A stretch of 62,863 nucleotides of DNA from Pilibacter termitis (lineage in GTDB: Bacteria; Bacillota; Bacilli; Lactobacillales; Streptococcaceae): NCBI RefSeq assembly GCF_900167335.1, contig NZ_FUXI01000021.1, forward strand, positions 1 to 62,863. Reading direction: 5' to 3'. This document shows, piece after piece, positions 3,175 through 39,282 of this stretch. Positions within the stretch are counted from its first letter, which is position 1; every line of letters starts with the position of its first letter. The notes under the pieces were generated by a model. It saw only the letters and a program-made list of their open reading frames with translations, was not told the DNA's origin and searched no databases. The translations under genes and the position numbers were made by a program.

Positions 3175-4938
3175 CTATTCTTCCACAACTCTAAGCCTCA
3201 ACTCACCAAGTTGTTCCGCACTCACAACGCTTGGTGCATCACTCATTGGGTCGCTTGCTTTTGCATTTTTCGGAAATGCGATGACTTCACGGATATTGTC
3301 AGTATTTGCCAAAATCATAGCGAAACGATCAAGACCTAGGGCTAATCCGCCATGCGGTGGGAAACCATAGTCAAGTGCTTCAAGTAAGAAACCAAATTGC
3401 TCATTGGCTGCCTCTTGTGTAAATCCTAGAGCTTTGAACATTTTCTCTTGCAATTCTCGGGTGAAAATACGCAAACTTCCTCCGCCAAGCTCATAACCAT
3501 TTAACACAATATCATATGCCTCTGCATAAACATTTGCCAAATCATTGTTCTCTAGCTTTTCTATATCCTCTTTAAAAGGTAGGGTAAATGGATGATGTGC
3601 CGACATATAGCGATTTTCTTCTTCACTCCATTCAAACATTGGCCAATTCACAACCCAAAGGAAATTGAATTTACTCTCATCAATCAAGCCCAACTCTTTT
3701 CCAAGGCGTGTGCGAAGTCCGCCAAGTGTCGCTGCGACTATTTCTTTCGTATCCGCTGCAAAAAGGAGCATATCGCCAGATTTTGCCTCACACAACTCTA
3801 GCAATTCACTTTCAATCTCGCCCAAGAATTTTGCAATCGGACCTGTTACTCCCTCATCCGTTACTTTGACCCATGCAAGACCTTTTGCACCATATTGTGT
3901 GGCAATTTGTGTTAATTTATCAATATCTTTTCGAGAATATTTTTCAGCTGCTTGAGGAACGCAAATCGCTTTGACTTGCCCGCCATTTTCAAGAGCAGAG
4001 CTGAAAACTTTAAACTCTACGTTTTTTGCGATTTCGCTCAAATCAACTAATTCCATACCAAAGCGTGTGTCAGGCTTATCACTTCCGTATCTACTCATCG
4101 CCACGTCATAATCCATACGTGGAAACGGAAGAGTGACATCAATTCCTTTCACTTCTTTCATCACACGTGCAATCATGCCCTCTGTTAATGTTTGAATTTC
4201 TTCTGCTGATAAGAAACTTGTTTCTAAGTCAATTTGCGTAAATTCTGGCTGACGGTCACCACGCAAATCTTCATCACGGAAACATTTAGCAATTTGATAA
4301 TAACGGTCAAATCCTGCATTCATCAACAACTGCTTGAAAATCTGCGGACTTTGTGGCAATGCGTAAAAATGCCCTTCATGAATACGACTAGGCACAAGAT
4401 AATCCCTCGCACCTTCTGGTGTCGATTTGTTCAAAATAGGTGTTTCTACATCTATAAAATCTTGTTCATCCAAGAAATGACGTGCCGCTTTTGTCAATTT
4501 GTGACGAAGTTTAAAGTTTTCAAGCATTTCAGGACGACGTAAATCGAGATAACGATAGCGTAAACGCGTGTCATCACTAGCCGTCGTGTCGTCTGTAATC
4601 TCAAACGGTGTCGTTTTAGAAGAACTCAAAATTTCAACTTCGTTCGCCTCAATTTCAATGCCTCCTGTTTTTAGTTTGTCATTCTTGCTTGTTCGTTCAA
4701 CGACTTTCCCTGTGATTTCCACCACAAACTCGCTCCTAAGTTTTTCAGCAGTCGCTACAACATTCTCGCTTGCCAACTCTGGATTCACCACCACCTGCAC
4801 AATGCCTTCACGGTCACGAATATCCAAAAATACAAGCCCGCCAAGATTGCGACGACGTGCCACCCAGCCTTGAACGGTCACTGTTTGATTGAGGTATTCC
4901 TCTGTAATATTTCCACAATAGTTTGTTCGTTTTTTCAT
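3175..4938 (-). CDS. aspS: Aspartate--tRNA ligase
   Basis: AspRS charges tRNA-Asp with aspartate in the cytoplasm. The 587-residue protein has the N-terminal OB-fold anticodon-binding domain ([19 protein letters not shown]), class II motif 2 [16 protein letters not shown] near residue 224 and motif 3 [13 protein letters not shown] near 536, with the bacterial GAD insertion between them. I chose the ATG at 4938 (MKKRTNYCG) because AAAGGA sits a few bases upstream; an in-frame start 15 bases earlier has no such site. It is the last gene of the hisS operon and is followed by a long terminator hairpin. Length is normal for bacterial AspRS. Confidence 0.97.
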
Positions 4939-4966
4939 GATAGTTCCTTTCAATTTCTTTTTTTCC

Positions 4967-5320
4967 TTACGCTACTCTCAAAATCTTTTCCATCGCCTTG
5001 CCTTTGGCAAGTTCATCAATCAACTTATCCAAAAAACGCACTTTTTGCGTTATCTCGTCCTCAATATCTTCCACACGCACACCGCAAACCACGCCTTTTA
5101 TCAAACAGGCATTGGGATTGAAAAGTGGGGCTTGTTGAAAAAATTTTTCCAGTTCAAGCTCCTCTTGAAGTGCTTGTGAAAAAGTTTCTTGATTGTATCC
5201 TGTCAGCCAGAAAATGATTTCATCAACTTCGGCTTTCGTACGTCCTTTTCGCTCTGCTTTTTGGATATAGGCAGGATAAACGTCAGAAATTTTGATTGTA
5301 TAAATCCTCGGTTTTTTCAT
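4967..5320 (-). CDS. DUF2200 family protein
   Basis: A 117-residue cytoplasmic protein matching the DUF2200 pattern: [19 protein letters not shown], then ERKGRTK.EVDEII.WLTGY. The family has no established function. It lies between the acetyltransferase gene and aspS in the operon that starts at hisS, 28 bases before aspS, so it is likely co-transcribed and under the same T-box. The C-terminal half ([20 protein letters not shown]) is predicted helical by eye. No catalytic residues can be proposed. Confidence 0.85.
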
Positions 5321-5344
5321 TACTTCGCCACTCCATTCTTTTTG

Positions 5345-6097
5345 CTACGCTTTTTTCGTCCAGCGTATCTCCGTAAAACCAATAGTAAATCCCGCTTGAA
5401 TTGCCACATTCATGCTTTTTACATGAGAAAATTGCGTGCCGTATAACAATAAATTTTCCGGATAATCCGCTAACGTCTTGTTTTTCATTGCACGCACGAG
5501 TTTTGAGGCAATTCCTCTGCCTTTTGCTTTTTCGCTCAGCAGTTCAACTCCTACTTCCCACGCAAATCGTCCGCCCTCGCTCGCTCCAGCAACTGCCAAC
5601 ATTTCACCTTGCTCAATAAACGCCGCACCTAATTTGTCAGGAAATGCTTCGTCAAATGAGAACGAATGAACAAATCGTTTGTCCTCTTTGAATTGCAAAA
5701 TTTCTTCTGGCGAAAAAAACTGAATCTCTTCCCCAAGCGACACGTTTTCCTCCGTATTCGGAATGAAAAACGGTGCCACCCCTGCAATCTCAAAGCCAAA
5801 ATCGTCCAATACTTTCCGCAACTTAACGAGATTCACTTCTTCCATAAACCATTGATTTTCCTCTAAAGCATAGAGTTCTTGCAATTTATTCGTCAATTTT
5901 TCGCAATTTGTCCGCACGAACATTTTGCCGTCAAGCAACGCAATACAGCCGTCCGACTTCGCCCAAAAACGCATTTCATCCTTTGGCTCTGCCGTTTGAA
6001 AAATCGTCCGTTGCCTCATCAATTCCTCAAAAGGAGTCACATAATCGAGAGCTAGTTGTTTATATAATAATTTCTTTTGATTTTCTATTTTCCTCAC
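5345..6097 (-). CDS. GNAT family N-acetyltransferase
   Basis: A 250-residue protein whose C-terminal half looks like a GNAT fold. [20 protein letters not shown] (about residues 178-197) contains the acetyl-CoA pyrophosphate loop (K-x-G-R-G-I-A), followed by a helix and the late AFT/AGF strand ([21 protein letters not shown]). The N-terminal half is family-specific and not recognised. The start codon overlaps the hisS stop by four bases (ATGA), so translation is probably coupled to hisS. The substrate cannot be inferred; a link to aminoacyl or tRNA metabolism is only suggested by the neighbours. Confidence 0.8.
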
Positions 6098-7377
6098 CCT
6101 TTTATCAAATCATCGTAAATCACAGAAAAATCACGGTACAATTCTTTTAATGGATAGGCTTTTTCTTCACGTGTATCGGCATTTTTCACATTTGCCTCTG
6201 CTTTTTCTAACTCACCCTCACCAATCGTAATCACAAGTTTTGCCGCTAATTTGTCAACCGTCTTAAACTGAGCTTTCGCCTTACGATTGAGAAAATCTCG
6301 TTCTGCCGAAAAGCCTTGCTTACGAATAGATTGCACCAACTTCAACGTCTCAACATTTACCGCTTCACCAAGGGATACTACATAAACGTCCACTTGATTT
6401 GGATTAGGAATTTCTACTTTTTCTTCCTCAAGCAAAAGTAGGAGACGCTCAATTCCTAGTGCAAAGCCAAAACCGCTCGTTTCAGGTCCGCCAAAATATT
6501 CTACTAGCTTGTCATATCTGCCACCTGCTGCAACGGTCAATTCCTTGCCAGAAATAGTTGCCATCAATTCAAAAATCGTATGATTGTAATAATCCAGCCC
6601 TCGAACCATATTGGTATCAATCACATAAGGAATTTCCAATGCCTCAAGCATTGTTTTCACCGTTTCAAAATGTTTGCTACTTTCTTCATCTAGGAAGTCC
6701 AATATAGACGGAGCATTTTTGACAACTTCTTTGTCCTTAGCATCTTTTGAGTCCAACACACGCAACGGATTTTCATGTAAACGACGTTTAGAATCCTCAC
6801 TTAATTCCTCAAAATGTGGCATGAGAAAATCAATCAACGCCTTGCGATAATTTGCCCGACTTTCAGTATTTCCTAGCGTATTAATATGCAAACTTGTGTT
6901 TTTTATCCCAAGTTGCTCAAAATACGTCATCACCATCGCCATACTTTCCACATCTGTCGCAGGATTGTCGCTACCAAAAACTTCCGCACCTATCTGATGA
7001 AATTGACGATAACGCCCTTTTTGCATACGCTCGTAGCGGAACATTGCACCAGCATAATAAACTTTGTACGGTTTTTGATATTCTGGAGCGAACAATTTAT
7101 TTTCCACAAACGCACGTACAACAGGAGCCGTTCCCTCTGGTCGTAGCGTAATATGCCGTTCCCCTTTATCGTAAAAATCGTACATTTCTTTTGAAACAAT
7201 ATCCGTCGTATCTCCCACGCTTCGTGAAATCACCTCATAATGTTCAAACAACGGTGTACGGATTTCTTGGTATTGATGTCCGCCAAACACGAGACGTGCT
7301 TTTTCTTCTACGAATTGCCATTTGTAACTTTCACTCGGTAAAATGTCATTGGTTCCTTTTGGTCGTTGTAACTTCAT
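6094..7377 (-). CDS. hisS: Histidine--tRNA ligase
   Basis: HisRS charges tRNA-His. The 427-residue class II enzyme begins [14 protein letters not shown] and shows motif 2 [19 protein letters not shown], the histidine motif [11 protein letters not shown] and motif 3 [16 protein letters not shown], then the anticodon-binding domain. The start at 7377 is set by GGAGGG seven bases upstream; the 26 extra in-frame codons upstream run back into the T-box terminator and are not coding. It heads an operon hisS-GNAT-DUF2200-aspS. Control is by tRNA-dependent antitermination in the leader. Confidence 0.97.
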
Positions 7378-10827: not shown

Positions 10828-12042
10828 ATGGAAAACAGACGTCGTCGGCAAATTGATAATCGGATTGATTACGGAGTGATTTTGCCAGTATTCTTACTTT
10901 GTCTTATCGGGTTACTTGCCCTTTATATCGCGTATTCACATTCTGGAACGGGAGAAAATGTGCTAAGCAAAGTGGCTCAACAAGGAATTTGGATGGCAAT
11001 CGGGGTGTTTGCTGTATTTATTACCATTCATTTTTCTAATAAAATGCTTTGGCTACTCACCCCGATTTTTTACGGAGTTGGCTTGATTATCAATATTTTG
11101 CCAAGATTTTTTTTCAGTCCTGCACTTCTTGAGCGGACAGGGAGTTACAACTGGATTGTCATCGGCAACAAGCAACTGTTTCAGCCAAGCGAATTATTGA
11201 AACTTGCTTACATTCTCGTTTTGGCATACGTTATCACTCAGCACAATGCTTATTATACTCACCGAGTAATGCGTAGTGATGTTTGGCTTATTTTGAAAAT
11301 GAGTGCTTTGACCGCACCAATGGCAGTATTATTATTGTTCGTCCAAAACGACTTCGGAACATTTTTAGTTTTCGTTGCGATCTTTTTAGGAATGTTACTT
11401 TTAACTGGGATTTCTTGGAAAATTCTCGTGCCACTTTACACCGTCGTCATCTCCTCCGGTGCCTTAGGGTTGTTCCTTGTCACCAATGACGTAGGACGTG
11501 AATTTTTACGCAAATTCGGTGTGCAATCTTATAAATTCGCTCGTATCGACACATGGCTTGACCCTTGGAAATATTCTTCTGGCAACGGGTATCAACAGGC
11601 AAGAGGATTACTAGCGATTGGTAGCGGTGGGTTAACAGGGAAAGGCTTCAATGTTTCACAAGTTCACGTACCCGTACGTGAAAGTGATATGATTTTCACC
11701 GTTATCGGCGAAGATTTTGGTTTTATCGGTAGCACATTTGTCATTTTACTCTATTTTATCCTTATCTATCGTATGGTTCGGGTAACATTTGAGTCAAATA
11801 ACGAATTTTACACCTATATTTCAACTGGAATTATCATGATGATTCTTTTCCACGTACTCGAAAATATCGGAGCAAATATCGGTCTTTTACCACTAACAGG
11901 GATTCCTCTTCCTTTTATTTCACAAGGGGGAACCAGTCTAGTCGGCAATATGATTGGAATAGGATTAATCCTCTCCATGAAATATCACCAAAAACCCGAT
12001 TTTGAGGAATGGAAAGAAAGTCGCAGCCGTCGAAGAGTTTAA
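10828..12042 (+). CDS. rodA: SEDS peptidoglycan glycosyltransferase RodA
   Basis: A 404-residue polytopic membrane protein of the FtsW/RodA/SpoVE (SEDS) family, which polymerises lipid II during cell wall elongation together with a class B penicillin-binding protein. Ten membrane segments can be read. The long extracellular loop carries GNGYQQARGLLAIGSGGLTG and the family signature VRESDMIFTVIGEDFGFIG; the end shows PLTGIPLPFISQGGTSL. The separate locus, without division genes, favours RodA over FtsW. A GCGGGAG ribosome site precedes the ATG. It is a single-gene unit closed by a strong terminator. Confidence 0.92.
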   Translation: MENRRRRQIDNRIDYGVILPVFLLCLIGLLALYIAYSHSGTGENVLSKVAQQGIWMAIGVFAVFITIHFSNKMLWLLTPIFYGVGLIINILPRFFFSPALLERTGSYNWIVIGNKQLFQPSELLKLAYILVLAYVITQHNAYYTHRVMRSDVWLILKMSALTAPMAVLLLFVQNDFGTFLVFVAIFLGMLLLTGISWKILVPLYTVVISSGALGLFLVTNDVGREFLRKFGVQSYKFARIDTWLDPWKYSSGNGYQQARGLLAIGSGGLTGKGFNVSQVHVPVRESDMIFTVIGEDFGFIGSTFVILLYFILIYRMVRVTFESNNEFYTYISTGIIMMILFHVLENIGANIGLLPLTGIPLPFISQGGTSLVGNMIGIGLILSMKYHQKPDFEEWKESRSRRRV

Positions 12043-12046
12043 CAAT

Positions 12047-12098
12047 AAAAATCGCAGAAACATCACTTTCTAAAAATGATGTTTCTGCGATTTTTCTC
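12047..12098. terminator. Bidirectional terminator between rodA and the ABC permease gene
   Basis: The perfect 19-bp arms AAAAATCGCAGAAACATCA and TGATGTTTCTGCGATTTTT enclose an 11-base loop. A-rich and T-rich flanks let it end transcripts of both convergent units. Confidence 0.9.
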
Positions 12099-12099
12099 C

Positions 12100-13257
12100 T
12101 TAAATTTCTAATTTGTTCATTCTTCTAGCGGTCAAAGCATACAAAATGCCTGATAACAATAGAAGATAAATCATTCCTATAACAAATGAATGTTTTGGAA
12201 AATATAAATCCGTCTGCGTTATAACGCCAAATGTATCAAGATAGCTGTAAGGAACGAAAGGACTTATCATTTTCATAAAATCCATATCTTTAATCAGCGT
12301 AAAGCCGTAATAACTCAACAAAAATATCCCTAGACTTAACAGCGTTTTTTGTAGATAACTCCCTAAAAATAAAAAGAGAATAATCAAAAACAACAATACA
12401 ATAAAATAATAAGGAATATACATTAATAGTAATTGCAATGCAGAAATAAATGACAAGTTGTCCACATTGTTACCTATGGCAACTGGAACTTGCGAGACAC
12501 CAAAGCCTGCTATCATTCCTTTAATGAAGAACATTAACGGAAACGCGACACTTGAAACCACTACTGCTACCAAAAATTGAACAATTAATTTAAAACTTAA
12601 AATACTCCTCTTCTTTTTAACAGTAAATGAGTAGAGATAAATAGTTGATTTTTCAAAGTTATTTGTTAAAAAATCACAAAACAGAATGGCGAATAACATA
12701 ATCAAAATAAAGCTAGAAAACGTTGCTAAATCTATTGATAAAGCCCCCCACGAACTCTTTGGCATTGCAAGGTCTTCTGTAATAGGAATTTTTTTATCGA
12801 CCATATATTTTCTCTGCTCTAAATCTTTTTTTGACGCCAAATATCTCTTAGGATCTTTTTGTTTCAAATATTCTAACCCGTCACCTGTATTTGCTCCGCC
12901 TTCTGCAAATAATAATTTCGCTCTTTTCTGCTCTAATGTGTAAAATTCACTCCAATCTTCTCGTCTTAAAGCCGTTATTTGCTGACTACTGATTTCGTTT
13001 ATTTTTTCCGTGTTCTCTAAACTCTTTAACCAGACTTCATCTTTTGCATTTCTTGCCTCTTCTTTTTGCTCCTCTAACCCTTTAGAATTGACTCTTATAT
13101 CCTCTTCTAAAACAGGAATTAAGCTCTCGTTATTATTAAAATTTGAAAAAAATAACGATACAAAACTTAGAAAAAACGTTGCCGATAATAATACAATCAG
13201 TATGATATTTTTCACCGTAAGAAACGTTTTCCACTCAAAAATCAATCTCTGCTTCAT
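12100..13257 (-). CDS. ABC-2 type transporter permease
   Basis: A 385-residue membrane protein. An N-terminal membrane helix (residues about 15-38) is followed by a long extracytoplasmic loop of about 130 residues rich in Glu and Lys, then five hydrophobic helices after about residue 175. This is the plan of ABC-2 family exporter permeases. Its start lies inside the end of the ATPase gene upstream (23-base overlap), so the two are one unit. In position it follows the secreted-peptide gene at 14038-14349, which suggests export of, or immunity to, that peptide. The substrate is not shown by the sequence. Confidence 0.82.
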   Translation of the reverse strand: MKQRLIFEWKTFLTVKNIILIVLLSATFFLSFVSLFFSNFNNNESLIPVLEEDIRVNSKGLEEQKEEARNAKDEVWLKSLENTEKINEISSQQITALRREDWSEFYTLEQKRAKLLFAEGGANTGDGLEYLKQKDPKRYLASKKDLEQRKYMVDKKIPITEDLAMPKSSWGALSIDLATFSSFILIMLFAILFCDFLTNNFEKSTIYLYSFTVKKKRSILSFKLIVQFLVAVVVSSVAFPLMFFIKGMIAGFGVSQVPVAIGNNVDNLSFISALQLLLMYIPYYFIVLLFLIILFLFLGSYLQKTLLSLGIFLLSYYGFTLIKDMDFMKMISPFVPYSYLDTFGVITQTDLYFPKHSFVIGMIYLLLLSGILYALTARRMNKLEI

Positions 13258-13936
13258 CTAACCCCTCCGTTATTTTTTCAAGATAAAGACTTTCTAATGA
13301 CATCGAATCAATCTCTTCCTCCAGTTTTTCCAATCCTTCATCGTGCAAAAAATAAATCTCATCAGATACCTCTGAAACCTCCATTAATTGATGTGAAGAA
13401 AGGAAAATAATTTTTTCTTTTTTTAATTTCAACAATAAATTCATCGCTTTTCTACGATTGATTGGATCTAAACCATTTAAAATTTCATCAAATATCAAAA
13501 TAGGCACATCAAAACTACACGTTAAAATGATAAGCAAAATTTGTTTCATTCCAAGAGAATAACTTTTCACTTTTTTCTTTAACAAATCATGTGCTACAAA
13601 ATATTCGATTAATTTTTCCGTTCGCTCCTTTTGCTCTTTCGGTAGCAAAAGAAGGTGTTCTCTCCCTGTCAAATTTTCCATAAGTGTACTTTCACTTACA
13701 AAAAAAGCAAGCGAGTGAAAACTCTCCTTTGTTGAAAATATTTCCTTTGTATCGAAGAAAATATTCCCTTCATCTTTATGTAAAATCCCAGCAATCACCT
13801 TTAAAAGTGTGGTTTTCCCCACTCCATTAGGACCAACAAAAGTAATAAGAGAATTTTTCCGAATTTCCAAAGAAACATTCTCAAAAACTCGATGTTTTTT
13901 GAATGTTTTCCCAATGTTTTTTAAAATAACAACCAT
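13235..13936 (-). CDS. ABC transporter ATP-binding protein
   Basis: A 233-residue nucleotide-binding subunit. Walker A GPNGVGKTT is at about residues 34-42, the signature is SLGMKQILL near 125, Walker B is VPILIFDEIL near 145 and the switch His is in LSSHQ. The Q in the signature and the short length fit ABC-2 type exporters such as those for peptides or lantibiotic immunity. It pairs with the overlapping permease gene downstream. A hairpin of ten pairs lies between the peptide gene and this gene, so they may be partly co-transcribed. Confidence 0.9.
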   Translation of the reverse strand: MVVILKNIGKTFKKHRVFENVSLEIRKNSLITFVGPNGVGKTTLLKVIAGILHKDEGNIFFDTKEIFSTKESFHSLAFFVSESTLMENLTGREHLLLLPKEQKERTEKLIEYFVAHDLLKKKVKSYSLGMKQILLIILTCSFDVPILIFDEILNGLDPINRRKAMNLLLKLKKEKIIFLSSHQLMEVSEVSDEIYFLHDEGLEKLEEEIDSMSLESLYLEKITEGLDEAEIDF

Positions 13937-13963
13937 TCACTCTCTTCCTTTCATTCGTATGAG

Positions 13964-14023
13964 GAGGTTGAGACGATAATCAAATTTGTATTAAGTAGTA
14001 AACAAACACTTTCTCCCAACCTC
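13964..14023 (-). other. Long-loop stem between peptide gene and ABC genes
   Basis: GAGGTTGGGA and TCTCAACCTC pair across about 40 bases on the minus strand. There is no T-tract after the stem, so a partial terminator or an mRNA-processing/stabilising stem is more likely than a full stop. This could let the peptide mRNA be made in excess over the ABC genes. Confidence 0.45.
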
Positions 14024-14037
14024 GTCATGCTGTAAAA

Positions 14038-14349
14038 TTATCTAACTGTAACTTTATAATGGTCTACATACCATATAATCCCATAATGTATTCCATTGAT
14101 TCTTTCTCTATACGAAAAGCTCGAGCTAATACTATTCGTAAAAGCGAACTCTCTACCGTATTTAGTTACACGTCTATAACTTCCATTTATATAGGTTTCT
14201 TGTGCTGTCATCACCCATGCCATACGCCGAGGTGCTGCTTTGACCTCATTAAAAGAGGTAAACACACCCACTCCAAAGATACCTAAAGCCACCGTAGGAA
14301 CAACTAATTTTTTCACTAATTTGTTCTTTTTTTCGTTTACGACACTCAT
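14038..14349 (-). CDS. Small secreted basic peptide, candidate bacteriocin precursor
   Basis: A 103-residue precursor starting MSVVNEKKNK. I chose 14349 because GGAGGG lies seven bases upstream; an ATG 15 bases earlier is part of that ribosome site. The n-region KKNKLVKK, the hydrophobic core LVVPTVALGIFGVGVF and the probable cleavage EVKA/APRR form a classic signal peptide, leaving a mature chain of about 65 residues. It has no Cys, is rich in Tyr, Arg and Ser and ends HYKVTVR. I do not recognise the family. Size and signal peptide resemble lactococcin-972-type precursors, but the aromatic/His pattern of that family is not clearly present. ABC transporter genes flank it, and a degenerate second copy lies at 16810-16890. 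Confidence 0.7.
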   Translation of the reverse strand: MSVVNEKKNKLVKKLVVPTVALGIFGVGVFTSFNEVKAAPRRMAWVMTAQETYINGSYRRVTKYGREFAFTNSISSSFSYRERINGIHYGIIWYVDHYKVTVR

Positions 14350-14434
14350 TCTATTTCCCTCCATTTTCTGATATTAAGCCTTTCAAAATACCAACCGGTT
14401 TTTTGCAAAAGTATTTTTTTAATAGCTTAAATAC

Positions 14435-14503
14435 ACTGTAACATATCATTCTTAATCAAAAAATGGCAAACGAGGTCAAATCAACAATGTAAACGGGGTC
14501 AAA
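14435..14503 (-). promoter_or_regulatory. P1: activator-type promoter of the secreted peptide gene
   Basis: On the plus strand AAACGAGGTCAAA (14468-14480) and AAACGGGGTCAAA (14491-14503) are direct repeats 23 bases apart. Twenty-eight bases from the nearer repeat lies an extended -10, TGTTACAGT on the minus strand (TACAGT at 14435-14440). No -35 is present (poly-T at that place). The layout suggests a promoter that needs an activator bound just upstream of -35. The same layout recurs at 16976-17044. Confidence 0.7.
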
Positions 14504-14518
14504 AAAAGAAAACATTAA

Positions 14519-14573
14519 GGGTACCTCTAAAAAACATCTACTTTTGATACTAAACAGATTTTTAGAGACACCC
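14519..14573. repeat. Mini inverted repeat with GGGTACCTCTAAAAA ends
   Basis: GGGTACCTCTAAAAAA (14519-14534) faces TTTTTAGAGACACCC (14559-14573). It belongs to the GGGCACCTCTAAAAA terminal-repeat family found at several places in the window, and here sits between the second ABC transporter and the peptide promoter P1. It may also terminate transcription. Confidence 0.7.
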
Positions 14574-14603
14574 TTTAGGAATTTACGTCATTTTTTCGTT
14601 ACC

Positions 14604-15260
14604 CTAATTTTCCACCAATTTATAGTTTTCAACGCTATATTTTCGGTCTGCTATCGCCCAAATTCGTTCATCGTGCGAGGCGATAATCACAATTTTTCCT
14701 TGCTTACTCAGCTTTTTAAATAATTCTACAATAAACGAAAAATTATCTGCATCTAAATTCGTTGTCGGCTCGTCTGCCAAAATTATTTTAGGGTCAAGCA
14801 ATAAACTTCGGATAATCGCCACTCTCTGCTTTTGTCCTCCAGAAATATTCTTGACTTTTTTGTCTAAAATTTCTCTCAGGTCAAAGCGTTCTGCCAGACT
14901 TTTCGCCTTGTTTTCAGCTTGTGATTTATCCATTTTTTCATTGTAAAACGAGGGCAAAAGGATATTTTCCAAAACCGTATAATCATCAATCAATGCAAAA
15001 TCTTGCAAAATATATCCTATTTTATCGTTTCTAAATTTACTCATTTGAGAATCGTTTTTCGTCAAAATCATCTGCCCTTGGTAAAAATATTCCCCCTCAT
15101 CAAATTGCTTGATTCCTGCAATCATATCTAGTAAAGTCGTTTTTCCAATACCACTTTTTCCAGTTAAAACCACAATTTCGCCACTTTCAGCTTTAAAATT
15201 GGTACTTAAAAATACCTTTTTCTCTTTGTAAAGTTTTTGAATCCTTTTAAGTTCAATCAT
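14604..15260 (-). CDS. ABC transporter ATP-binding protein (FtsX/MacB-type exporter)
   Basis: A 218-residue ATPase with Walker A LTGKSGIGKTTLL (about 32-44), Q-loop ILQDFAL, signature NISGGQKQRV, Walker B PKIILADEPTTNLD and switch IASHD. The DEPTTNLD form is typical of LolD/MacB-like exporters and of ATPases linked to bacteriocin loci. The start overlaps the end of the permease gene upstream by eight bases, so the subunits are co-translated. Together with the two membrane genes upstream it should form one exporter, probably for the secreted peptide or in defence against it. Confidence 0.9.
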   Translation of the reverse strand: MIELKRIQKLYKEKKVFLSTNFKAESGEIVVLTGKSGIGKTTLLDMIAGIKQFDEGEYFYQGQMILTKNDSQMSKFRNDKIGYILQDFALIDDYTVLENILLPSFYNEKMDKSQAENKAKSLAERFDLREILDKKVKNISGGQKQRVAIIRSLLLDPKIILADEPTTNLDADNFSFIVELFKKLSKQGKIVIIASHDERIWAIADRKYSVENYKLVEN

Positions 15261-16155
15261 TTAAGACACCTTTTAACTTTCTTCTAATAATCAAATAGAT
15301 GAATCCTGCTAATATGAAATTTAACGCAAACAAGTACAGGTAATCTACAAGCAATATGCCATACCCAACAGCATGGATACAGAAGAGAGACACTATTGCT
15401 GCCACAAAAACTGGACTAATTAGCAAGTAGCTAAAATTTCTTTGTATCGCTTTTTTCGACACACCAATCACACGAAACAGACGTATTTCTTGTTTGAAAA
15501 TTTTGATTGCTGAGGCGATAAGAAAATACGACAATGTTATTACAAAGAGATAAAACAAAATAGTCATCGCTAACGCCCAGAGAAAATTGCCGAAATAGTA
15601 TTGAAACTCTTCTTTCAGAAGATCCTTTAATGAAAATAAACGTAAATCAACATTCTTCTTTTTGGAAAATTCTTCTAATTTCTTGAAATCTTCTTTGCTA
15701 GGATTGAAAACAATCAGTTTATCAATAAAGTTCCCATCCACAAATCCAACTTCGTCGGCATAGAAAAGTTCCTTTTGCAATGTTTTTTCAGTTAAACGTT
15801 CTTTTTTTCCGCTTGAAACATCGAGATAAGTAGATTTCCCTGTATAAACGCTCATTTCACTATTAGAATGTAAAAAGAAAGTTGTTAAAAAAGACAAAAT
15901 TTCCTGTTGTTCTTCTGCGGAATAAGAATAAGCTCTAGCACCTCCTGATTCATTCAGTGCTTCACTTCTAGGATTATGCCGCACTTCGTAGACATCCTCA
16001 TCAGATTTTGATTGCAAAGCAAACAAATTCGGCAGTATTCTTATAAACCGTGTGGTTTCATTCCAAAAGAGTATATTCATTACGAAAACAATCAAAAGAA
16101 TAATTCCAAATAAATAAAATCTTTTTTTCAACAATAGTATATTTAATTTTTTCAT
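15253..16155 (-). CDS. FtsX-like permease subunit, large part
   Basis: A 300-residue membrane protein: one N-terminal helix (residues 10-30), an extracytoplasmic domain of about 150 residues, then three helices from about 190 to the end with the cytoplasmic turn FRVIGVSKKAIQRNF between the first and second. This is the single-domain FtsX layout. It overlaps both neighbours by a few bases. Permeases accompanying lactococcin-972-like bacteriocins are single proteins of over 600 residues; here the two halves appear to be encoded separately (this gene and 16152-16538). No recognised signature decides the substrate. Confidence 0.75.
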   Translation of the reverse strand: MKKLNILLLKKRFYLFGIILLIVFVMNILFWNETTRFIRILPNLFALQSKSDEDVYEVRHNPRSEALNESGGARAYSYSAEEQQEILSFLTTFFLHSNSEMSVYTGKSTYLDVSSGKKERLTEKTLQKELFYADEVGFVDGNFIDKLIVFNPSKEDFKKLEEFSKKKNVDLRLFSLKDLLKEEFQYYFGNFLWALAMTILFYLFVITLSYFLIASAIKIFKQEIRLFRVIGVSKKAIQRNFSYLLISPVFVAAIVSLFCIHAVGYGILLVDYLYLFALNFILAGFIYLIIRRKLKGVLND

Positions 16156-16538
16156 ACGATTCTCCTAAGAAATAAAAATAGATACATATTTTTTAATGTA
16201 ATTAGCAAAAAACTAAGCAAACATAATATAAAAAGATGACTTTCACGCAAAAATATCGCGAACATTCCGTTAAATACAATGGTACTAAGAAATAAAGAAA
16301 AGAAATCTACACAAAAATTTTCAGTCCATTCTCGTTTTTTTGATTTCCCCACGATATAATATACTTGAATCACTCGTTTATTTGCTAAAATTACTGCGAT
16401 AAAAACAAAAAGGTGTATGAAGATGATCAAGATTGGAAAAACAAGCGAACTCGTTTTCATCTTCATCACAAATAAGTTGAGTAATAAAACAGTGTAAATA
16501 TCCAAAGCGATGAACGATAGTTTTAGTTTTTTTGTCAT
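16152..16538 (-). CDS. Small membrane protein, second FtsX-like half
   Basis: A 128-residue protein with four hydrophobic segments and a central cytoplasmic turn VYYIVGKSKKREWTENF, which mirrors FRVIGVSKKAIQRNF in the next gene (V-G-x-S-K-K). It lacks the extracytoplasmic domain and the first helix of a full FtsX unit, so it is either a split or a reduced half of a duplicated FtsX permease. Its stop overlaps the start of the 300-residue permease gene by four bases (ATGA). It is the first gene of the transporter operon. Confidence 0.65.
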   Translation of the reverse strand: MTKKLKLSFIALDIYTVLLLNLFVMKMKTSSLVFPILIIFIHLFVFIAVILANKRVIQVYYIVGKSKKREWTENFCVDFFSLFLSTIVFNGMFAIFLRESHLFILCLLSFLLITLKNMYLFLFLRRIV

Positions 16539-16697
16539 GATTGCCTTTCTATTTTTAACAAAACTTGTGCAAGTATAGAAGGGTACTCGAAAACTTACGT
16601 TTGCTAAAATTTTCTAATTTTTTAAATAAATAGTTCGTGTCCACTTCACTCTTTCTTGCTTAACGAACACAGCTAATAAAAAAATGATTTCCCCTTA

Positions 16698-16706
16698 AGT
16701 ATAGCA
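16698..16706 (-). promoter_or_regulatory. Possible extended -10 promoter for the split-permease operon
   Basis: TGCTATACT on the minus strand (TATACT at 16698-16703) is an extended -10 with only poly-T at the -35 place, about 160 bases before the first gene. It resembles the -10 parts of P1 and P2 but has no direct repeats nearby. Confidence 0.4.
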
Positions 16707-16809
16707 CACTTTCATTCAGAAAAAACATTCTAAATCATGACAACTTTATTACTAAATTCTAACGTTTTTATTTCAATTTTTTATTCTAAGTAGTTCTTAC
16801 TTTTCCTCT

Positions 16810-16890
16810 ATTCATGAAGAAAGCACAGCTACTCTAAAAACACCTAAAATCAGCATAGGAACAATCATTTTTTTCGTTTGCTATGCTCGT
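16810..16890 (-). pseudogene. Decayed copy of the secreted-peptide signal sequence
   Basis: Read on the minus strand, this region aligns with the 5' part of the gene at 14038-14349. The ribosome site GGAGGAAAATAGA is kept, but the start ATG has become ACG (16888-16890). A deletion after the conserved AACGAAAAAAA shifts the frame, and the stretch TTGTTCCTATGCTGATTTTA corresponds to TTGTTCCTACGGTGGCTTTA of the intact gene. The mature part is gone. It follows promoter copy P2, so the peptide gene and promoter were once duplicated together. Confidence 0.7.
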
Positions 16891-16975
16891 TCTATTTTCC
16901 TCCATTTTTTCATAATAAGCCTCTCAAAATACCAACCGATTTTTTTGCAAAAGTATTTCTCAATAGCTTAAGGAT

Positions 16976-17044
16976 ACTATAACATATCCTCTATTATTAA
17001 AAAACGGCAAATAAGGTCAAATCAACAATGTAAACGAGGTCAAA
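16976..17044 (-). promoter_or_regulatory. P2: second copy of the activator-type promoter
   Basis: AAATAAGGTCAAA (17009-17021) and AAACGAGGTCAAA (17032-17044) are again 23 bases apart, and an extended -10 TGTTATAGT (TATAGT at 16976-16981) again lies 28 bases from the nearer repeat. Spacing and repeat sequence are better conserved than the flanks. P2 points at the decayed peptide gene and the split-permease operon, and it is divergent from the AraC-type regulator gene. Confidence 0.7.
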
Positions 17045-17067
17045 AATAAAAAACAATGATTCTTTTG

Positions 17068-17095
17068 TTGATTTTTCTATTAAATTACTTATAAT
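17068..17095 (+). promoter_or_regulatory. Possible promoter of the AraC-type regulator
   Basis: TTGATT at 17068-17073 and TATAAT at 17090-17095 are spaced 16 bases. The -35 is weak. It lies directly behind the P2 repeats, so a protein bound there could affect both directions. Confidence 0.45.
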
Positions 17096-17147
17096 TATTT
17101 TTAAAGAAAACTTGAACAAAATCTATGAGAAGTGGGGAGAGAGGGAA

Positions 17148-17891
17148 ATGGAGAAATTTATTGTTAATAAGCTAAAACAATTTTCAAAAAAGAATCAAGT
17201 GCCATTTATTTATTTTTTAGATAAAAACGGGGAAATTCTGTTCAAAAAACATCAAAATGATTTTTTTGAAAACTATAACGAATTTGAAGTTTGGGAACAA
17301 AAATTTACACATAAGTGTATCATTTCTTTTCATCTCCATTTAGAAGAAACCGCTATCTTTTTAGACTCGTTCAATCTTTTGATCGCTTGTCAAAACATCT
17401 ATGATAATGAACAGAAGATAGGAGTTCTTGCATTAGGCGGTTTTCGTCTGCAACACTTTGATTATAGAGAAATCAAACTTTCGTATGAACACTGGGAACT
17501 TTTCGATAAACTTCCTGTAATTTTGTCAAAAAAGGAGTTAATAGAGAGAACCTCTCGTTTTTTCTCCAGTACAAAAAACGTTCAACTGGAGAGTAACTTT
17601 CAAAAAATCATTGAGCTATTATCAAATGAAATGCACATAAAGCATACTTTGAATAGCATTAGCAACATTTTTCACCTTTCGCCTTCAACAATTAAAAGAC
17701 TATTCCAGTTGCATACTGGTTATAGCTTTACTACTTTTTATACAGAAATGAAGATAAAGAAAGCACTTCAAATGAGAACAGAAGGGTTAGCCTATCACAA
17801 AATACTTGAATATTTGGGTTATAAAGAAAGCAAGTGTTTTCTTGAAAAATTAAAAAAACGCTTGCGTGATGATGTGGAGGACAGTATATAA
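17148..17891 (+). CDS. AraC-type transcriptional regulator
   Basis: A 247-residue protein with a C-terminal AraC-like DNA-binding domain: first HTH around NSISNIFHLSPSTIKRLFQL (about residues 172-191), then GYSFTTFYTEMKIKKAL, and a less typical second HTH ILEYLGYKESKCFLEKLKKR. The N-terminal 140 residues hold a GEILF and a VLALGGFRL strand and may sense a ligand, but I do not recognise the fold. I chose the ATG at 17148 because GGGGAGAGAGGG precedes it; a TTG 36 bases earlier is possible. It is divergent from P2 and is the obvious candidate to bind the paired direct repeats of P1 and P2. Confidence 0.82.
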   Translation: MEKFIVNKLKQFSKKNQVPFIYFLDKNGEILFKKHQNDFFENYNEFEVWEQKFTHKCIISFHLHLEETAIFLDSFNLLIACQNIYDNEQKIGVLALGGFRLQHFDYREIKLSYEHWELFDKLPVILSKKELIERTSRFFSSTKNVQLESNFQKIIELLSNEMHIKHTLNSISNIFHLSPSTIKRLFQLHTGYSFTTFYTEMKIKKALQMRTEGLAYHKILEYLGYKESKCFLEKLKKRLRDDVEDSI

Positions 17892-17897
17892 ATTCGC

Positions 17898-18061
17898 AAA
17901 AAACTCACGATTTAAAAAGAGGTTGCTGAAAAAGTTCGTTTTTAGAGAAAATCAAATTCAAAAGTCGCTCAACCATGCGGTTTTCAATCTGTATTTTCCT
18001 AAAAACTTATACTTTTTCAGCAACCTCCTTAAAAAATCTGTGAGTTTTTTAGAGGTGCCCT
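17898..18061. repeat. Nested MITE-like palindromes after the regulator gene
   Basis: The outer arms are AAAAAACTCACGATTT on the left and AATCTGTGAGTTTTTTAGAGGTGCCC-type sequence on the right (18035-18061); the left terminal GGGCACCTCT is missing. Inside lies a complete palindromic element (17919-18026) with 17-bp perfect ends GAGGTTGCTGAAAAAGT. GGTTGCTGAAAAAG ends are of the kind seen on IS-derived MITEs. The inner element seems to have inserted into the outer one. Confidence 0.7.
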
Positions 18062-18077
18062 TTATATAATAAAAATT

Positions 18078-19766
18078 TTATTCTTCCTCATGCACTCGAA
18101 CCAAATCTCCAAACAACTCCGTAGCCTCTTGAATTATTGGGTCGCTTTTTTGTTTTTCGACTTCTTTGGGAACTTCTTCTGTTGCCTGTGCTGCTCTGAA
18201 ACTCTCTTTAATCTTGTCCCAACCGGCTTGCGTGACAGGAACTAGCTCTGGAGCGTACCGAGTAAGCCTTGAGAGATTGTTGGAAACGGCGAGTTTTAAC
18301 CCCTCGTCCATGCTGATTTTTTCTGCTAAAAACGACAAATTGTTCTCAAACATAATCACAACCTCATTTGGCGTTGCAGCAACGATAGAGTAACGTTGGA
18401 AATTCGCTCGTTGAGGTGTCGATAGCATACTGAGCATATCTGTCCAGACCTCTCTTACCTCTTTTCTGATTTCCTTCGTTGCGTTTGGCAAAAGTTTTAA
18501 AATGCGATCAATCGGATCTTTATAATTTGTCTTAATCGTTACATTTGATCGGTTTTGCGGTGTTGCTTTCGCATTCGGCTGCGGTTGTGTTTTTAGCTCG
18601 TTGATTTCCTGTTGAAGAAGTAAAATCTCTTGCTTGAGACCGTCTAATTCCCTACTTGTTGGTACATTCAACTGCGATGTCGCCATTTGTTGTGGTGTAA
18701 TCATTTGAATCGTCATCACTTCAAGTTGCACTTGAGCGTTGGTGGAACTTGAGAGACTCTCTAGCGTTTTATTCAACACGTGTATCGCTGAGAACACTTC
18801 TTCTCTCGTCATTTTTTCTTTGACCGACTTGGCAGAACGATTTTCCCCAGACAACTCCTCAACAAACTTAGGGGCAAAATCTATCATCAACGCATCTCGC
18901 AAAAACAAGAGACTATCTTCGACAAAACGTTTCGCCTCTTTTCCAGAAGAAAGCATTTCGTTTATAATCTCTAACGCCACCTCCGCGTTTTTTTCTGTAA
19001 TTGCAAGAAAGTATTGAGCTAACACTTCACTTGTCATGCTCCCTGTCATTTTCAAAGCAACTTCTTTTGTCAATTGTTCATCTGAAAAACTAATCGCCTG
19101 ATCCAAAATCGAAAGAGCATCTCGCATACCACCTTGTGCGGCACGTGCAATAATCACAAGAGCTTCTTCCTCAAATGGTTGATTGACTTCATTTAAAACG
19201 TGCTTTAAATGTTCTACAATATCATTCATAGAAATGCGTTTAAAATCAAATCGCTGAGTACGACTTAAAATCGTTGCTGGCACCTTATGCACTTCTGTCG
19301 TTGCCAAAACAAATAGCACACGCTCAGGCGGTTCTTCCAACGTTTTCAAAAGGGCATTGAATGCTTGGTTCGTAAGCATATGCACCTCGTCAATGATATA
19401 CACTTTGATTTTCGCTACACTCGGCGGAAACTTGACCGTCTCACGTAAACGGCGAATTTCTTCCACACCATTATTACTTGCCGCATCAATCTCAATTACA
19501 TCTTCTAAACTTCCTTGTGTAATTTCTTTACACGTTTGACATTCATTGCACGGCTCTCCGTCATGCGTAGAAGTACAATTCACCGCCTTGGCAAAAATAC
19601 GTGCAGCACTCGTTTTCCCAGTTCCTCTTGGGCCTGTAAAAAGATAGGCGTGGCTCATTGTCCCATTCATCACTGCATTTTTCAAAGTCTTACTAATAAG
19701 CGATTGTCCAACTATATCACCAAATCGTTGCGAACGAAAGGTTCTGTATAATGCTTGATATGCCAA
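18078..19766 (-). CDS. dnaX: DNA polymerase III subunits gamma/tau
   Basis: The clamp-loader ATPase of the replisome. The 562-residue protein has Walker A GPRGTGKTSA (about residues 45-54), the four zinc-binding Cys in CTSTHDGEPCNECQTC, Walker B IIDEVHML, sensor 1 LATTEVHKVPATILSRTQ and the collar domain; a tau-like C-terminal part is present. Usual neighbours yaaK/ebfC and recR are absent here. It lies between a nested palindrome downstream and about 600 bases of repeat-rich DNA upstream, next to the ribosomal cluster, which points to a rearrangement at this place. Confidence 0.96.
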   Translation of the reverse strand: MAYQALYRTFRSQRFGDIVGQSLISKTLKNAVMNGTMSHAYLFTGPRGTGKTSAARIFAKAVNCTSTHDGEPCNECQTCKEITQGSLEDVIEIDAASNNGVEEIRRLRETVKFPPSVAKIKVYIIDEVHMLTNQAFNALLKTLEEPPERVLFVLATTEVHKVPATILSRTQRFDFKRISMNDIVEHLKHVLNEVNQPFEEEALVIIARAAQGGMRDALSILDQAISFSDEQLTKEVALKMTGSMTSEVLAQYFLAITEKNAEVALEIINEMLSSGKEAKRFVEDSLLFLRDALMIDFAPKFVEELSGENRSAKSVKEKMTREEVFSAIHVLNKTLESLSSSTNAQVQLEVMTIQMITPQQMATSQLNVPTSRELDGLKQEILLLQQEINELKTQPQPNAKATPQNRSNVTIKTNYKDPIDRILKLLPNATKEIRKEVREVWTDMLSMLSTPQRANFQRYSIVAATPNEVVIMFENNLSFLAEKISMDEGLKLAVSNNLSRLTRYAPELVPVTQAGWDKIKESFRAAQATEEVPKEVEKQKSDPIIQEATELFGDLVRVHEEE

Positions 19767-35589: not shown

Positions 35590-36546
35590 TTATAAATATT
35601 TTACCATTCCCTCAGCACGACCTGAAATTCTACCATTCAAGACTTTCTCTCTTAATTTCTCCCCTGAAATTGATAAGTCTTCAATCTGTTCACTTAACCA
35701 TTTCTTCCCTACATCATTTTTCCGAAGGTCATCATATACTTGTAACGCTGTTAAAACTTTTTCCAATTGTTCACGAGTGAAACCTGTTTTCTCTACCTTT
35801 TCATCTGAAATTCCAGCAGTTTGCTTTCCTGAGTTCGTAACTTCCCCCATTAATTCCACTCTCTTAACTTCCATTTCCTTACTCATTTGCAACACTCGAT
35901 AAAAACGATTCAATTCTGCCGTATTTCCCCCGCTTTCTTCTGGATTGACTGGTTTATATTGTTCAAAATACGTTTGTACTTCTGCTTTTAGCGGTGCAAA
36001 ATCGCCATTCCAAAGCTGATTCAAGAGAGATTCTCCATTTATTTCTCGTTCTCCATAGTTTTCTACTAACCATTTCTTCCCTAGTTTATTATTTGTTAGA
36101 TTTGAAGAGTATAAATGGTATGTCGTTATAAAAATTTCGACTTCCTCTTGTGAATAACCTGTTTTAGCGATTTTCTCTTCTGGAATCCCGACAGTTTGGC
36201 TACCTATTTCAAATACTCCATTCCACATTTCATATGTCTTATCATAGATTGCTTGAGCATTTTTCATAAGGAAAATAAAATCTTCCATTTCTTTCGTTCT
36301 TTGCACAACTTCTTCTTTCGGTTTTTCTGTTGAAACAGGTGTTACTTCTTGTTTGTCGTTCTCCACCTCCTTTTTCACTTCTTGACTCGTCGAAGTGCTA
36401 GTTGTTTCTTTTTTCTTCACGCTTGTTTTGATCTCCTCTTTCCCTGCTGAGCTTTTTCCTTTTTGCCCGCAAGCACCTAAAACGGCAGTTAACCCTACTA
36501 CTGCTGCAAATAGCAATACTTTTTTGATTTTTCCTTTTTGTGACAT
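35590..36546 (-). CDS. Lipoprotein with two internal repeats (paralogue A)
   Basis: A 318-residue secreted lipoprotein. The signal peptide KVLLFAAVVGLTAVLGACGQ ends in the lipobox L-G-A-C, so Cys26 should be lipidated. A Lys/Glu/Thr/Ser-rich linker to about residue 85 is followed by two copies of a domain of about 100 residues: each has Q-T-x-G-I, a K-T-G-(Y/F) turn, a helix, G-K-K-W-L and a final helix with N-G. I do not recognise the domain. The next gene upstream encodes a paralogue with the same plan, so this arose by both internal and gene duplication. Clear GAGGAGG ribosome site. Confidence 0.75.
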   Translation of the reverse strand: MSQKGKIKKVLLFAAVVGLTAVLGACGQKGKSSAGKEEIKTSVKKKETTSTSTSQEVKKEVENDKQEVTPVSTEKPKEEVVQRTKEMEDFIFLMKNAQAIYDKTYEMWNGVFEIGSQTVGIPEEKIAKTGYSQEEVEIFITTYHLYSSNLTNNKLGKKWLVENYGEREINGESLLNQLWNGDFAPLKAEVQTYFEQYKPVNPEESGGNTAELNRFYRVLQMSKEMEVKRVELMGEVTNSGKQTAGISDEKVEKTGFTREQLEKVLTALQVYDDLRKNDVGKKWLSEQIEDLSISGEKLREKVLNGRISGRAEGMVKYL

Positions 36547-36578
36547 TTTGTTGTCCTCCTCATAAATTTTTAAATTTT

Positions 36579-37547
36579 TTATAGATACTCTTGATACCCT
36601 CTTCTTATAAATGTAAACGCTCCTTTTTTCAACTTCTCTCTAAGCACTTCAGTAGAAATATTCTCAGCTACCTCGTTTTCTGTTAACCATTGTTTTCCTG
36701 CAACATCTTTTTGCATTTCATCATAAATCTTGAATGCTACATAGATTTTTTCAAGTTCTTCACGTGTATAGCTTGTATTTTCTACATCTTCCTCTGTAAA
36801 ATTCGCTGTTTGAATCCCAAAATCAGCCTTCTCCCCCTTTATTTCCTCCCATTTCGCACTCATTTCATTTCTTTTTCCCAATATTCTATCAAGATTCATG
36901 ACTTCCGCTATTTTTTTCTGATAATCTTCCGGATAATCTTCCTTATACTTAGTTCTAACTCGAATTTGAGCCAAGTATGGTTTCAACTCTGGCTCAAGCG
37001 ATGCAAAACTTCCAGCCCAAAACTGACTACTCAATTCATCCGAATCAATCTCTCTTTCTCCATATTGCTCAAGCAACCATTTATTCCCGGGTTTTACTTC
37101 CTGCAATTGCCCGTAAAACGCTAATGTAAGTTTTACTTTATCAGCTTCATCTGCTGAAAAACCACTTTTTTCGATATCTTCTTCTGTCAGGTAGTACCCA
37201 AGAGGAAAATAGTCATTCGTCAATTCTCCCATCTTATTTTGTATCTCCTGACCGTTTTTCATAATAAAAATAAAATCTTCCATTTCTTTCGTTCTTTGCA
37301 CAACTTCTTCTTTCGGTTTTTCTGTTGAAACAGGTGTTACTTCTTGTTTTTCCTCCTCATTCTTCACCTCCTTTTTCACTTCTTGATTCGTCGAAGTGCT
37401 AGTTGTTTCTTTTTTCTTCACGCTTGTTTTGAACTCCTCTTTCCCTGCCGAGCTTTTTCCTTTTTGCCCGCAAGCACCTAAAACGGCGGTTAACCCTACT
37501 ACTGCTGTAAATAGCAATACTTTTTTGATTTTCCCTTTTTGTAGCAT
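36579..37547 (-). CDS. Lipoprotein with two internal repeats (paralogue B)
   Basis: A 322-residue paralogue of the downstream gene. The first 85 residues are nearly identical (signal peptide to VLGACGQKGKSSAGKEE, then the linker STEKPKEEVVQRTKEMEDFIF), while the repeats have diverged: GNKWLLEQYGEREIDSDEL in the first and GKQWLTENEVAENISTEVL in the second. The sharp contrast suggests recent gene conversion of the 5' part. The ATG at 37547 has GGAG eight bases upstream; a GTG 27 bases earlier lies inside a palindromic repeat. No function can be assigned; an envelope role is implied by the lipobox. Confidence 0.75.
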   Translation of the reverse strand: MLQKGKIKKVLLFTAVVGLTAVLGACGQKGKSSAGKEEFKTSVKKKETTSTSTNQEVKKEVKNEEEKQEVTPVSTEKPKEEVVQRTKEMEDFIFIMKNGQEIQNKMGELTNDYFPLGYYLTEEDIEKSGFSADEADKVKLTLAFYGQLQEVKPGNKWLLEQYGEREIDSDELSSQFWAGSFASLEPELKPYLAQIRVRTKYKEDYPEDYQKKIAEVMNLDRILGKRNEMSAKWEEIKGEKADFGIQTANFTEEDVENTSYTREELEKIYVAFKIYDEMQKDVAGKQWLTENEVAENISTEVLREKLKKGAFTFIRRGYQEYL

Positions 37548-37561
37548 TTTTTTCTCTCCTT

Positions 37562-37680
37562 TCTGCGAAATCACTTCGTGATTTCGCAGAAACTTGACCT
37601 ACGCTTCGCTACGTCCAAGCGGGGTCATTCACGAACTTCGTCCGTTCAAAGTCTTTTCTGCGAAATCACTTCGTGATTTT
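37562..37680. repeat. Palindromic repeat with TTC-loop hairpins
   Basis: A perfect palindrome TCTGCGAAATCAC-TTC-GTGATTTCGCAGA spans 37562-37590. Its left part returns at 37657-37680, and between them lie GACC/GGTC arms and GAAC-TTCGTCC-GTTC. A decayed relative occurs at about 19870-19950. It abuts the ribosome site of lipoprotein B, so that gene's leader is inside the repeat. The rest, to 37854, has no gene that I can see. Confidence 0.65.
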
Positions 37681-38511: not shown

Positions 38512-39282
38512 CTAAACACCTCCCTCTTTTTTCTCTCTTGAAAAATCATGCACAAAACTCTCCCTTTCTCGATTGCTATTTCTCGTTCCGAGGACAAAAG
38601 AGGCGATTGGAAGTGTGATATAAAGCCAATGAGCGATTTTGGGATGATAAAAGGCAAACAGCAGAATGGAAATATTCAACCCTACAAGCAACAGAAAATG
38701 TGACAAAGAGTAAATTTGAAATACTTTTCCACGCTTTTCATCATTAACAAAATGTTCACGCATAATCAAATGCGACATTCTATCCAAACTCGCATTAACA
38801 ATGAGATACACCACACCATAATTCATCACTGAAAAGCTCGTCACTTCACTCATCATCCACTTGGTAAAAAGTGGAATTAAACATAAACCTGCGATAAAGA
38901 GCATATCTAGCAATAAAATCCGCTCGTTTAATTCCTCAATATCGGCAAACATTTTGTGTTGCTCGTACCAAAAATTCGCCACGATAAAAAAGCTAATCAA
39001 AAAAATCCCTATTGCTTTCAAAAACGCAGCATAGCTACTTTCCTCTGGAATCGGAATTTCAAGCACCATTACCGTGATAATAATCGCCACAATCGCATCT
39101 GTAAACACTTCTAAATGTTCACGCAATCTTCTTCGTCGACTTTTCTCCCGCTTTTTAATTTGCCCTTGAAATTTTTGCCATTTTTCTTCGATTGTTCCGT
39201 CATTCTCACCTGGAAAACTTTCTAAAAACCTCTCCTTAAATTTACGTTCTCTTTCTTCACGTCTTTCCTCATTCCACTTCAT
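38512..39282 (-). CDS. TMEM175/DUF1211 family membrane protein (candidate K+ channel)
   Basis: A 256-residue protein. A charged N-terminal region (to about residue 60) precedes a membrane domain that begins HLEVFTDAIVAIIITVMVLE, the F-(S/T)-D signature of the TMEM175 family, followed by five more helices (FFIVANFWYEQHKMF is also typical). Bacterial members are potassium-permeable channels built from two such units or as dimers. The conserved FSD motif is FTD here. I chose the ATG at 39282 with AGGTGG five bases upstream; a GTG nine bases earlier is less likely. Co-transcribed with the broken DUF368 gene. Confidence 0.78.
   Translation of the reverse strand: MKWNEERREERERKFKERFLESFPGENDGTIEEKWQKFQGQIKKREKSRRRRLREHLEVFTDAIVAIIITVMVLEIPIPEESSYAAFLKAIGIFLISFFIVANFWYEQHKMFADIEELNERILLLDMLFIAGLCLIPLFTKWMMSEVTSFSVMNYGVVYLIVNASLDRMSHLIMREHFVNDEKRGKVFQIYSLSHFLLLVGLNISILLFAFYHPKIAHWLYITLPIASFVLGTRNSNRERESFVHDFSREKKEGGV

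Follow-up and report, generated by a model that had tools for sequence, protein, structure and literature searches.

A candidate secreted-peptide island with two ABC transporters and an AraC-type regulator in Pilibacter termitis

What use does a bacterium make of a compact island that combines one small secreted peptide with two ATP-binding cassette (ABC) transporters and a regulator? This question is raised by positions 12,100 to 17,891 of contig NZ_FUXI01000021.1 of Pilibacter termitis (whole assembly 2.79 Mb in 59 contigs), which form part of the window, the whole stretch of 62,863 nucleotides (nt) that was analyzed. An initial annotation had recognized a bacteriocin-like logic in these genes, which was supported by the linkage of one transporter module to secreted peptides in other genera. 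By analogy with lactococcin 972, we give roughly even chances to the reading that the island encodes a regulated, Sec-exported bacteriocin with ABC-type self-immunity, which would work in a lactococcin-972-like manner. The system was not counted as a member of the lactococcin 972 group because its anatomy fits but the sequence tests fail. The gene order, the signal-like leader of the peptide, the duplicated operator region and the repeated occurrence of the first ABC beside secreted peptides of another family were all observed directly; the antimicrobial action of the peptide is putative. The initial observation was thus confirmed as a whole and its interpretation partly supported.

The secreted peptide and the genes around it

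The island consists of seven genes, six on the minus strand and the AraC-type regulator alone on the plus strand, and the gene list and coordinates first proposed were correct. In order of transcription, the minus-strand genes encode a hydrophobic membrane protein of 128 amino acids (aa) (16152..16538), a 300-aa permease with one N-terminal and several C-terminal hydrophobic segments (15253..16155) and a 218-aa ATPase (14604..15260), which together make up the first ABC; then the 103-aa peptide precursor (14038..14349); and finally a 233-aa ATPase (13235..13936) and a 385-aa permease (12100..13257), the second ABC. Both ATPases have the ABC ATPase domain PF00005 (9.8e-24 and 4.1e-32), as the initial annotation had stated. 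The permease names given there, 'ABC-2' and 'FtsX-like', fared less well: none of the three membrane proteins (128, 300 and 385 aa) has a Pfam match at E<=1, so that these labels rest on hydropathy, on the partner ATPases and on sub-threshold FtsX matches of two relatives (E 1.8 and 2.6).

The peptide gene starts at the ATG at 14349, which is preceded by GGAGGG; the open reading frame (ORF) tool reports the same frame as 108 aa from an ATG further upstream. Inspection by eye and with a simple script indicated a leader with a basic start, a hydrophobic core and an Ala-x-Ala-like cleavage site, characteristic of a Sec-type signal. The predicted mature peptide has 65 aa, a net charge of +6, an isoelectric point of 10.1 and no Cys.

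As first suggested, the peptide could not be assigned to a family with the models used: at E<=1 it matched none in Pfam or NCBIfam, including those for bacteriocins of class II and other kinds. Likewise, there was no match in PHROGs, nothing below E 1.4 among the sequences of the PDB, and no relative was found in plasmids. Scans of viral contigs and genome contigs also returned none; these were seeded by six exact 8-residue stretches and can therefore reach close relatives only. Searching two overlapping sets, one with 196 genomes from the family and one with 198 from the order, gave no convincing relative, with weak matches in 12 other genomes (E 0.005-0.09). Two further weak genome matches were rejected, one lying inside an unrelated 213-aa protein and the other containing two stops and falling within the span of a helicase-like gene.

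The first ABC and a sister family of secreted peptides

The ATPase of the first ABC has TIGR03608 (L_ocin_972_ABC) as its best NCBIfam model, at 209.7 bits against a cut-off of 254.85. The same model was best for the ATPases of the four relatives scored, all of them under the curated cut-off. A search with the 300-aa permease detected 12 of 395 genomes of the order at E<=0.001, own genome included, with seven of the others strong (E<=2.4e-23) and four weak. At the seven strong loci the adjoining ATPase is 50-67% identical to that of the window, and the small membrane protein could be recognized by BLAST in five (32-34% identical), with an ORF of similar size in place in the remaining two.

A genome scan with the permease led to ten loci, several of them identical with the seven strong ones, in Vagococcus acidifermentans, Trichococcus sp. 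K1Tr, a record titled Sedimentibacter (similar to the Trichococcus locus), Enterococcus alcedinis, Enterococcus sp. 8G7_MSG3316, four Streptococcus and Lysinibacillus alkalisoli. At six of these ten loci, a gene of another peptide family, here called the sister family, lies directly ahead of the small membrane gene, and four of the six encode intact Sec-type precursors with lengths of 102-109 aa. A search of the class with a permease profile added two genomes, which both contained a sister peptide, and a search seeded with the peptides added five loci (three plasmids, two genomes), each adjoining the small membrane gene, permease and ATPase. The sister family thus comprises 13 loci with the ABC at all 13, the permease and ATPase of Lysinibacillus being present only as fragments. 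With a profile of the sister peptides, matches were obtained in 5 of 395 genomes, three of which are rows of that profile. The ABC that recurs beside secreted peptides across genera is the first, upstream one and not the downstream one.

The mature parts of the sister peptides (80-87 aa) are rich in aromatic residues and share a conserved pattern of the type 'G-x-A-W ... W-D'. Three members matched nothing in Pfam or NCBIfam at E<=10, and Foldseek with a sister-family model found no match at E<=0.001. Searches of openly licensed PMC papers turned up none that contained four motifs of the family, and none for a locus tag and three protein accessions. The plasmid copies belong to Macrococcoides canis, Enterococcus casseliflavus and Mammaliicoccus sciuri (proteins WP_164943081.1, WP_201706036.1 and WP_185160644.1); they are annotated as 'hypothetical protein', and two of the three plasmids are typed as mobilizable. 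Their operons encode a 406-aa permease, and the preceding membrane gene of 146-149 aa is missing from the plasmid gene table. One branch of seven loci has permeases of 404-410 aa and membrane proteins of 146-150 aa. In Streptococcus sp. LYSM12 a gene for a 308-aa regulator (5835-6761), Rgg-like by eye and unlike the AraC type of the window, is oriented divergently from the gene of the sister peptide.

The E. alcedinis operon opens with a sister peptide, and its ATPase shares 67% identity with that of the first ABC in the window; in a tree of 15 ATPases it is also the nearest by path, at a fork that lacks strong support.

Control region, second ABC and surroundings

The promoter and leader of the peptide gene (14238-14514) are duplicated on the minus strand at 16800-17055, ahead of the gene for the 128-aa membrane protein. 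Upstream of the start of the 103-aa precursor, 140 of 166 alignment columns are identical; within the leader this holds for 68 of 112 columns, 21 being gapped. The leader copy is decayed, as had been noted initially: it lacks the start codon of the 103-aa gene as well as 20 nt in two pieces, but retains the upstream ATG. No remnant of a sister peptide was found behind it. Together with a peptide that has no detectable relatives, this duplication and decay bear out the earlier view that the island evolves fast.

Both copies carry two TTTGACC repeats spaced 23 nt apart, which form a candidate operator upstream of the peptide gene (14474..14503, minus strand) and another upstream of the first-ABC genes (17015..17044, minus strand). 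A pattern drawn from both copies retrieved these two sites only from the 2.79-Mb assembly at <=3 mismatches, and the reversed control retrieved none. Downstream of the operator candidate at the peptide gene lies a sigma-70-like match (14469-14440). Since promoter-like matches are not more common in the region than in shuffles (23 versus 25.1), the assignment of promoters is based on the duplication of the region. The control part is better conserved than the leader and occurs twice, which suggests common control of both transcription units by a single regulator, the simplest candidate being the AraC-type protein next door. This protein (247 aa from the ATG at 17148; 17148..17891, plus strand) scores 33.7 bits with HTH_18 (cut-off 33.6), and the control of the island that the initial annotation ascribed to it is putative.

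The ATPase of the second ABC is best matched by TIGR03740 (lantibiotic protection ABC) at 136.4 bits, far below the cut-off of 309.75. A paralogous cluster in the same genome, on contig C30 (locus 3183-6195), has the order permease-ATPase-permease, and both permeases are 55-56% identical to that of the window; no secreted peptide of the window's kind was seen beside it. Weak relatives of the second permease occur on contig C24 and in 9 of the remaining 197 genomes of the order, and at six such loci (about 4 kb each, one in the own genome) no secreted peptide of the window's kind was recognized by eye. With the paralogous cluster of the own genome as its only close relative, the second ABC looks like an addition of the Pilibacter termitis lineage.

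The island is flanked by a rodA-type gene (10828-12042) and by dnaX (18078-19766), and its GC content is 0.29-0.34 in 2-kb windows, compared with about 0.38-0.41 in the surroundings. Of the two repeats resembling miniature inverted-repeat transposable elements (MITEs) that had been proposed, the one at 17898-18048 held up: it is an imperfect palindrome, about 150 nt long, and two partial copies of it (90% and 77%) occur elsewhere in the genome, on contigs C36 and C34. The other, at 14505-14600, has 26 short matches elsewhere, the longest being 67 nt at 78% and most 19-31 nt, and looks more like a terminator-type stem than a MITE. A weak hairpin (-22.7 kcal/mol, z -1.8) occupies the interval between the peptide gene and the second ATPase gene (13937..14037, minus strand), and a terminator-like stem (12048..12094, minus strand) marks the island end before the rodA-type gene. 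Region 12000-18100 gave no Rfam match at gathering scores. Elsewhere in the window, a low-GC gene of 730 aa with likeness by eye to UvrD/Rep-type helicases lies at 563-2755, and a second low-GC stretch (35590-37574) holds two adjacent, similar lipoprotein-like genes of 318 and 331 aa, an apparent tandem duplication.

Possible function and likeness to known systems

If the island does encode a bacteriocin, the AraC-type regulator would turn on two promoters via the shared direct-repeat operator, one promoter driving the peptide and the second ABC and the other the first ABC. The peptide would leave the cell by Sec and lose its signal by cleavage, and the basic mature protein of about 65 residues would act extracellularly, with the envelope of related Gram-positive bacteria as the likeliest site of action. 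The first ABC would then shield the producer by clearing the peptide away or by relieving the structure it attacks, and the second, LanFEG-like ABC may be a lineage-specific second layer of protection. Since the peptide has a Sec-type signal, neither ABC is needed as an exporter, and judged by orf2-orf3 of lactococcin 972 the first ABC is more likely to provide immunity than export.

Several results weigh against this function. At four of the ten permease loci, a six-frame profile search detected no sister peptide (Trichococcus sp. K1Tr, the record titled Sedimentibacter, Enterococcus 8G7_MSG3316 and Streptococcus CSL10205-OR2), and the first ABC can therefore exist alone. Two of the 13 sister-peptide genes are damaged: that of Vagococcus has a frameshift in the region of the signal/mature junction, and that of a metagenome-assembled genome has no in-frame signal. 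Lysinibacillus alkalisoli has an open sister peptide and small membrane gene next to a permease and ATPase in fragments (5232-6443 of its locus), an apparent loss of the ABC with the peptide kept, which is awkward for an ABC that serves as essential immunity. AlphaFold models were poor: the mean predicted local distance difference test (pLDDT) score was 52.9 for the window peptide alone and 49.7 for the model of the sister family, in which the mature part contains low-confidence beta strands.

Nor could the peptides be joined into one family. On a 13-member sister profile, in which one row retains the leader and two rows are partial, the window peptide ranked 125 of 501 against its own shuffles, and in pairwise comparisons with eight sister members 37 to 398 of 500 shuffles equaled its score. 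A homology of the sister family with lactococcin 972, whose chain ends look alike by eye, was unproven, as profile comparison stayed within the range of shuffles: the 8-member profile scored 12.6 (100 column shuffles: 91st sorted value 12.4, highest 18.0) and the 13-member profile 9.6 (median of 200 shuffles 9.4).

The peptide-less loci and the relative with a broken ABC also speak for the main alternative, a defence or stress unit in which the regulator senses a foreign antimicrobial or damage to the envelope, the two ABCs detoxify, and the secreted protein serves as shield or scavenger outside the cell. The nearest models of the two ATPases are named for bacteriocin transport and lantibiotic protection, and two ABCs for a single peptide make the island pump-heavy. 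However, all 13 sister loci have the peptide first and one ABC next, as does the lactococcin-972-type locus on contig C36 of the own genome, and three of the 13 are plasmid-borne, two of these being typed as mobilizable. Plasmid location is common for bacteriocin genes. The strong divergence of the peptides would also fit an arms race, and we consider a defence unit unlikely, if still the most serious competitor.

Two further explanations appear improbable, to a similar degree. The peptide might be a secreted pheromone or a surface protein that shares its regulation with the transporters by happenstance, as the adjacent regulator and shared operator candidate would allow; yet a pheromone would be expected to be smaller than these mature peptides (65 to 87 residues), the sister family is rich in aromatic residues, and no surface or wall-binding model matched the window peptide or three sister peptides. 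Alternatively, the peptide gene might be a relic or a chance frame, given that no relative was found, that the neighbouring leader copy is already broken, and that in the 667-nt gap between the ATPase genes a frame of at least 103 aa arose in 9 of 1000 dinucleotide shuffles (at least 108 aa in 6 of 1000). Against this stand the ribosome site, start, Sec-type leader and operator region, which are all in register, and the fact that leader and promoter are part of a duplicated unit. Finally, export of the peptide by one of the ABCs, a role the initial annotation gave to one of them, was not supported and is very improbable despite the name of TIGR03608 ('putative bacteriocin export ABC transporter'), as the precursor has a Sec-type signal, the ABC domain fills both ATPases (218 and 233 aa) and leaves no room for a leader peptidase, and lactococcin-972-like peptides are thought to exit by Sec according to a passage in PMC11796350.

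The bacteriocin reading can be extended. The window peptide does not align with the sister family, nor the sister family with lactococcin 972, better than shuffles do, and therefore three unrelated-looking peptides stand beside ABCs of one ATPase group. We tentatively propose, at less than even chances, that the first ABC serves as a general platform for immunity, with unrelated Sec-exported killers (lactococcin-972 types, the 13-locus family and orphans like the window peptide) being swapped on it; the last two groups would then be new bacteriocin families. The window might then capture an exchange under way, with promoter and leader duplicated and the old gene at the head of the operon decaying. 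If the bacteriocin reading is right, one and perhaps two peptide families would be added to the Sec-exported bacteriocins, and the region ahead of the split membrane genes would offer a peptide-independent handle for searches. The split, peptide-less and broken-ABC versions would be natural material for studying the role of this ABC.

Among known systems, LanFEG-type immunity ABCs resemble the second ABC in that TIGR03740 is the best model for its ATPase, which is combined with a multi-pass permease. They differ from it in that this ATPase stays so far under the cut-off, in that the window has one permease where the C30 paralogue has two, and in that no lantibiotic synthesis model was seen among the seven island genes (for the ATPases, among the best 25 matches). 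The sister family is similar in having a Sec-type precursor of about 100 aa adjoining a small membrane gene, a permease and an ATPase of the same clade. It differs in the W-containing mature pattern, which is absent from the window peptide, and in gene order, the sister peptide gene being first in its operon whereas that of the window follows the ATPase gene. Moreover, BLAST in nine loci of the recurring module, and inspection by eye of the others displayed, detected no second ABC like that of the window.

The analogy with lactococcin 972 is based on lcn972 with orf2-orf3, the known operon, as described in part of PMC4055356, and on scbABC, the locus of pneumococcal streptococcin B, as described in part of PMC11796350. 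Passages of the latter attribute to these bacteriocins a beta-sandwich fold, lipid II binding and septum inhibition. A six-frame search with PF09683 matched 46 of 147 genomes of the family, own genome included, where the only match (C36:41582-41791) lies outside the window. This C36 locus (about 38690-42088) encodes a 172-aa precursor, then a 687-aa membrane protein and then a 216-aa ATPase. Its peptide is over the PF09683 cut-off and under that of TIGR01653 (25.8 versus 32.1 bits), its membrane protein matches TIGR01654 (1.3e-53) just under the cut-off (182.6 versus 189.35), and its ATPase exceeds the cut-off of TIGR03608 (264.6 versus 254.85 bits); the locus is usable as an internal control. 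The window peptide, in contrast, matches neither PF09683 nor TIGR01653, so that the profile search proposed initially did not place it in the lactococcin 972 family. Where the C36 locus has a single membrane protein of 687 aa, the membrane part in the window is divided over two (128 and 300 aa), neither of which matches TIGR01654 at E<=1; the ATPase lies under the TIGR03608 cut-off; and a second ABC and an AraC-type regulator are added. What the window has in common with the lactococcin 972 operon is a Sec-type precursor near 100 aa with an adjacent membrane protein and ATPase, and with the group as a whole it shares TIGR03608 as the best ATPase model and, as in the case of scb, a regulator beside the locus.

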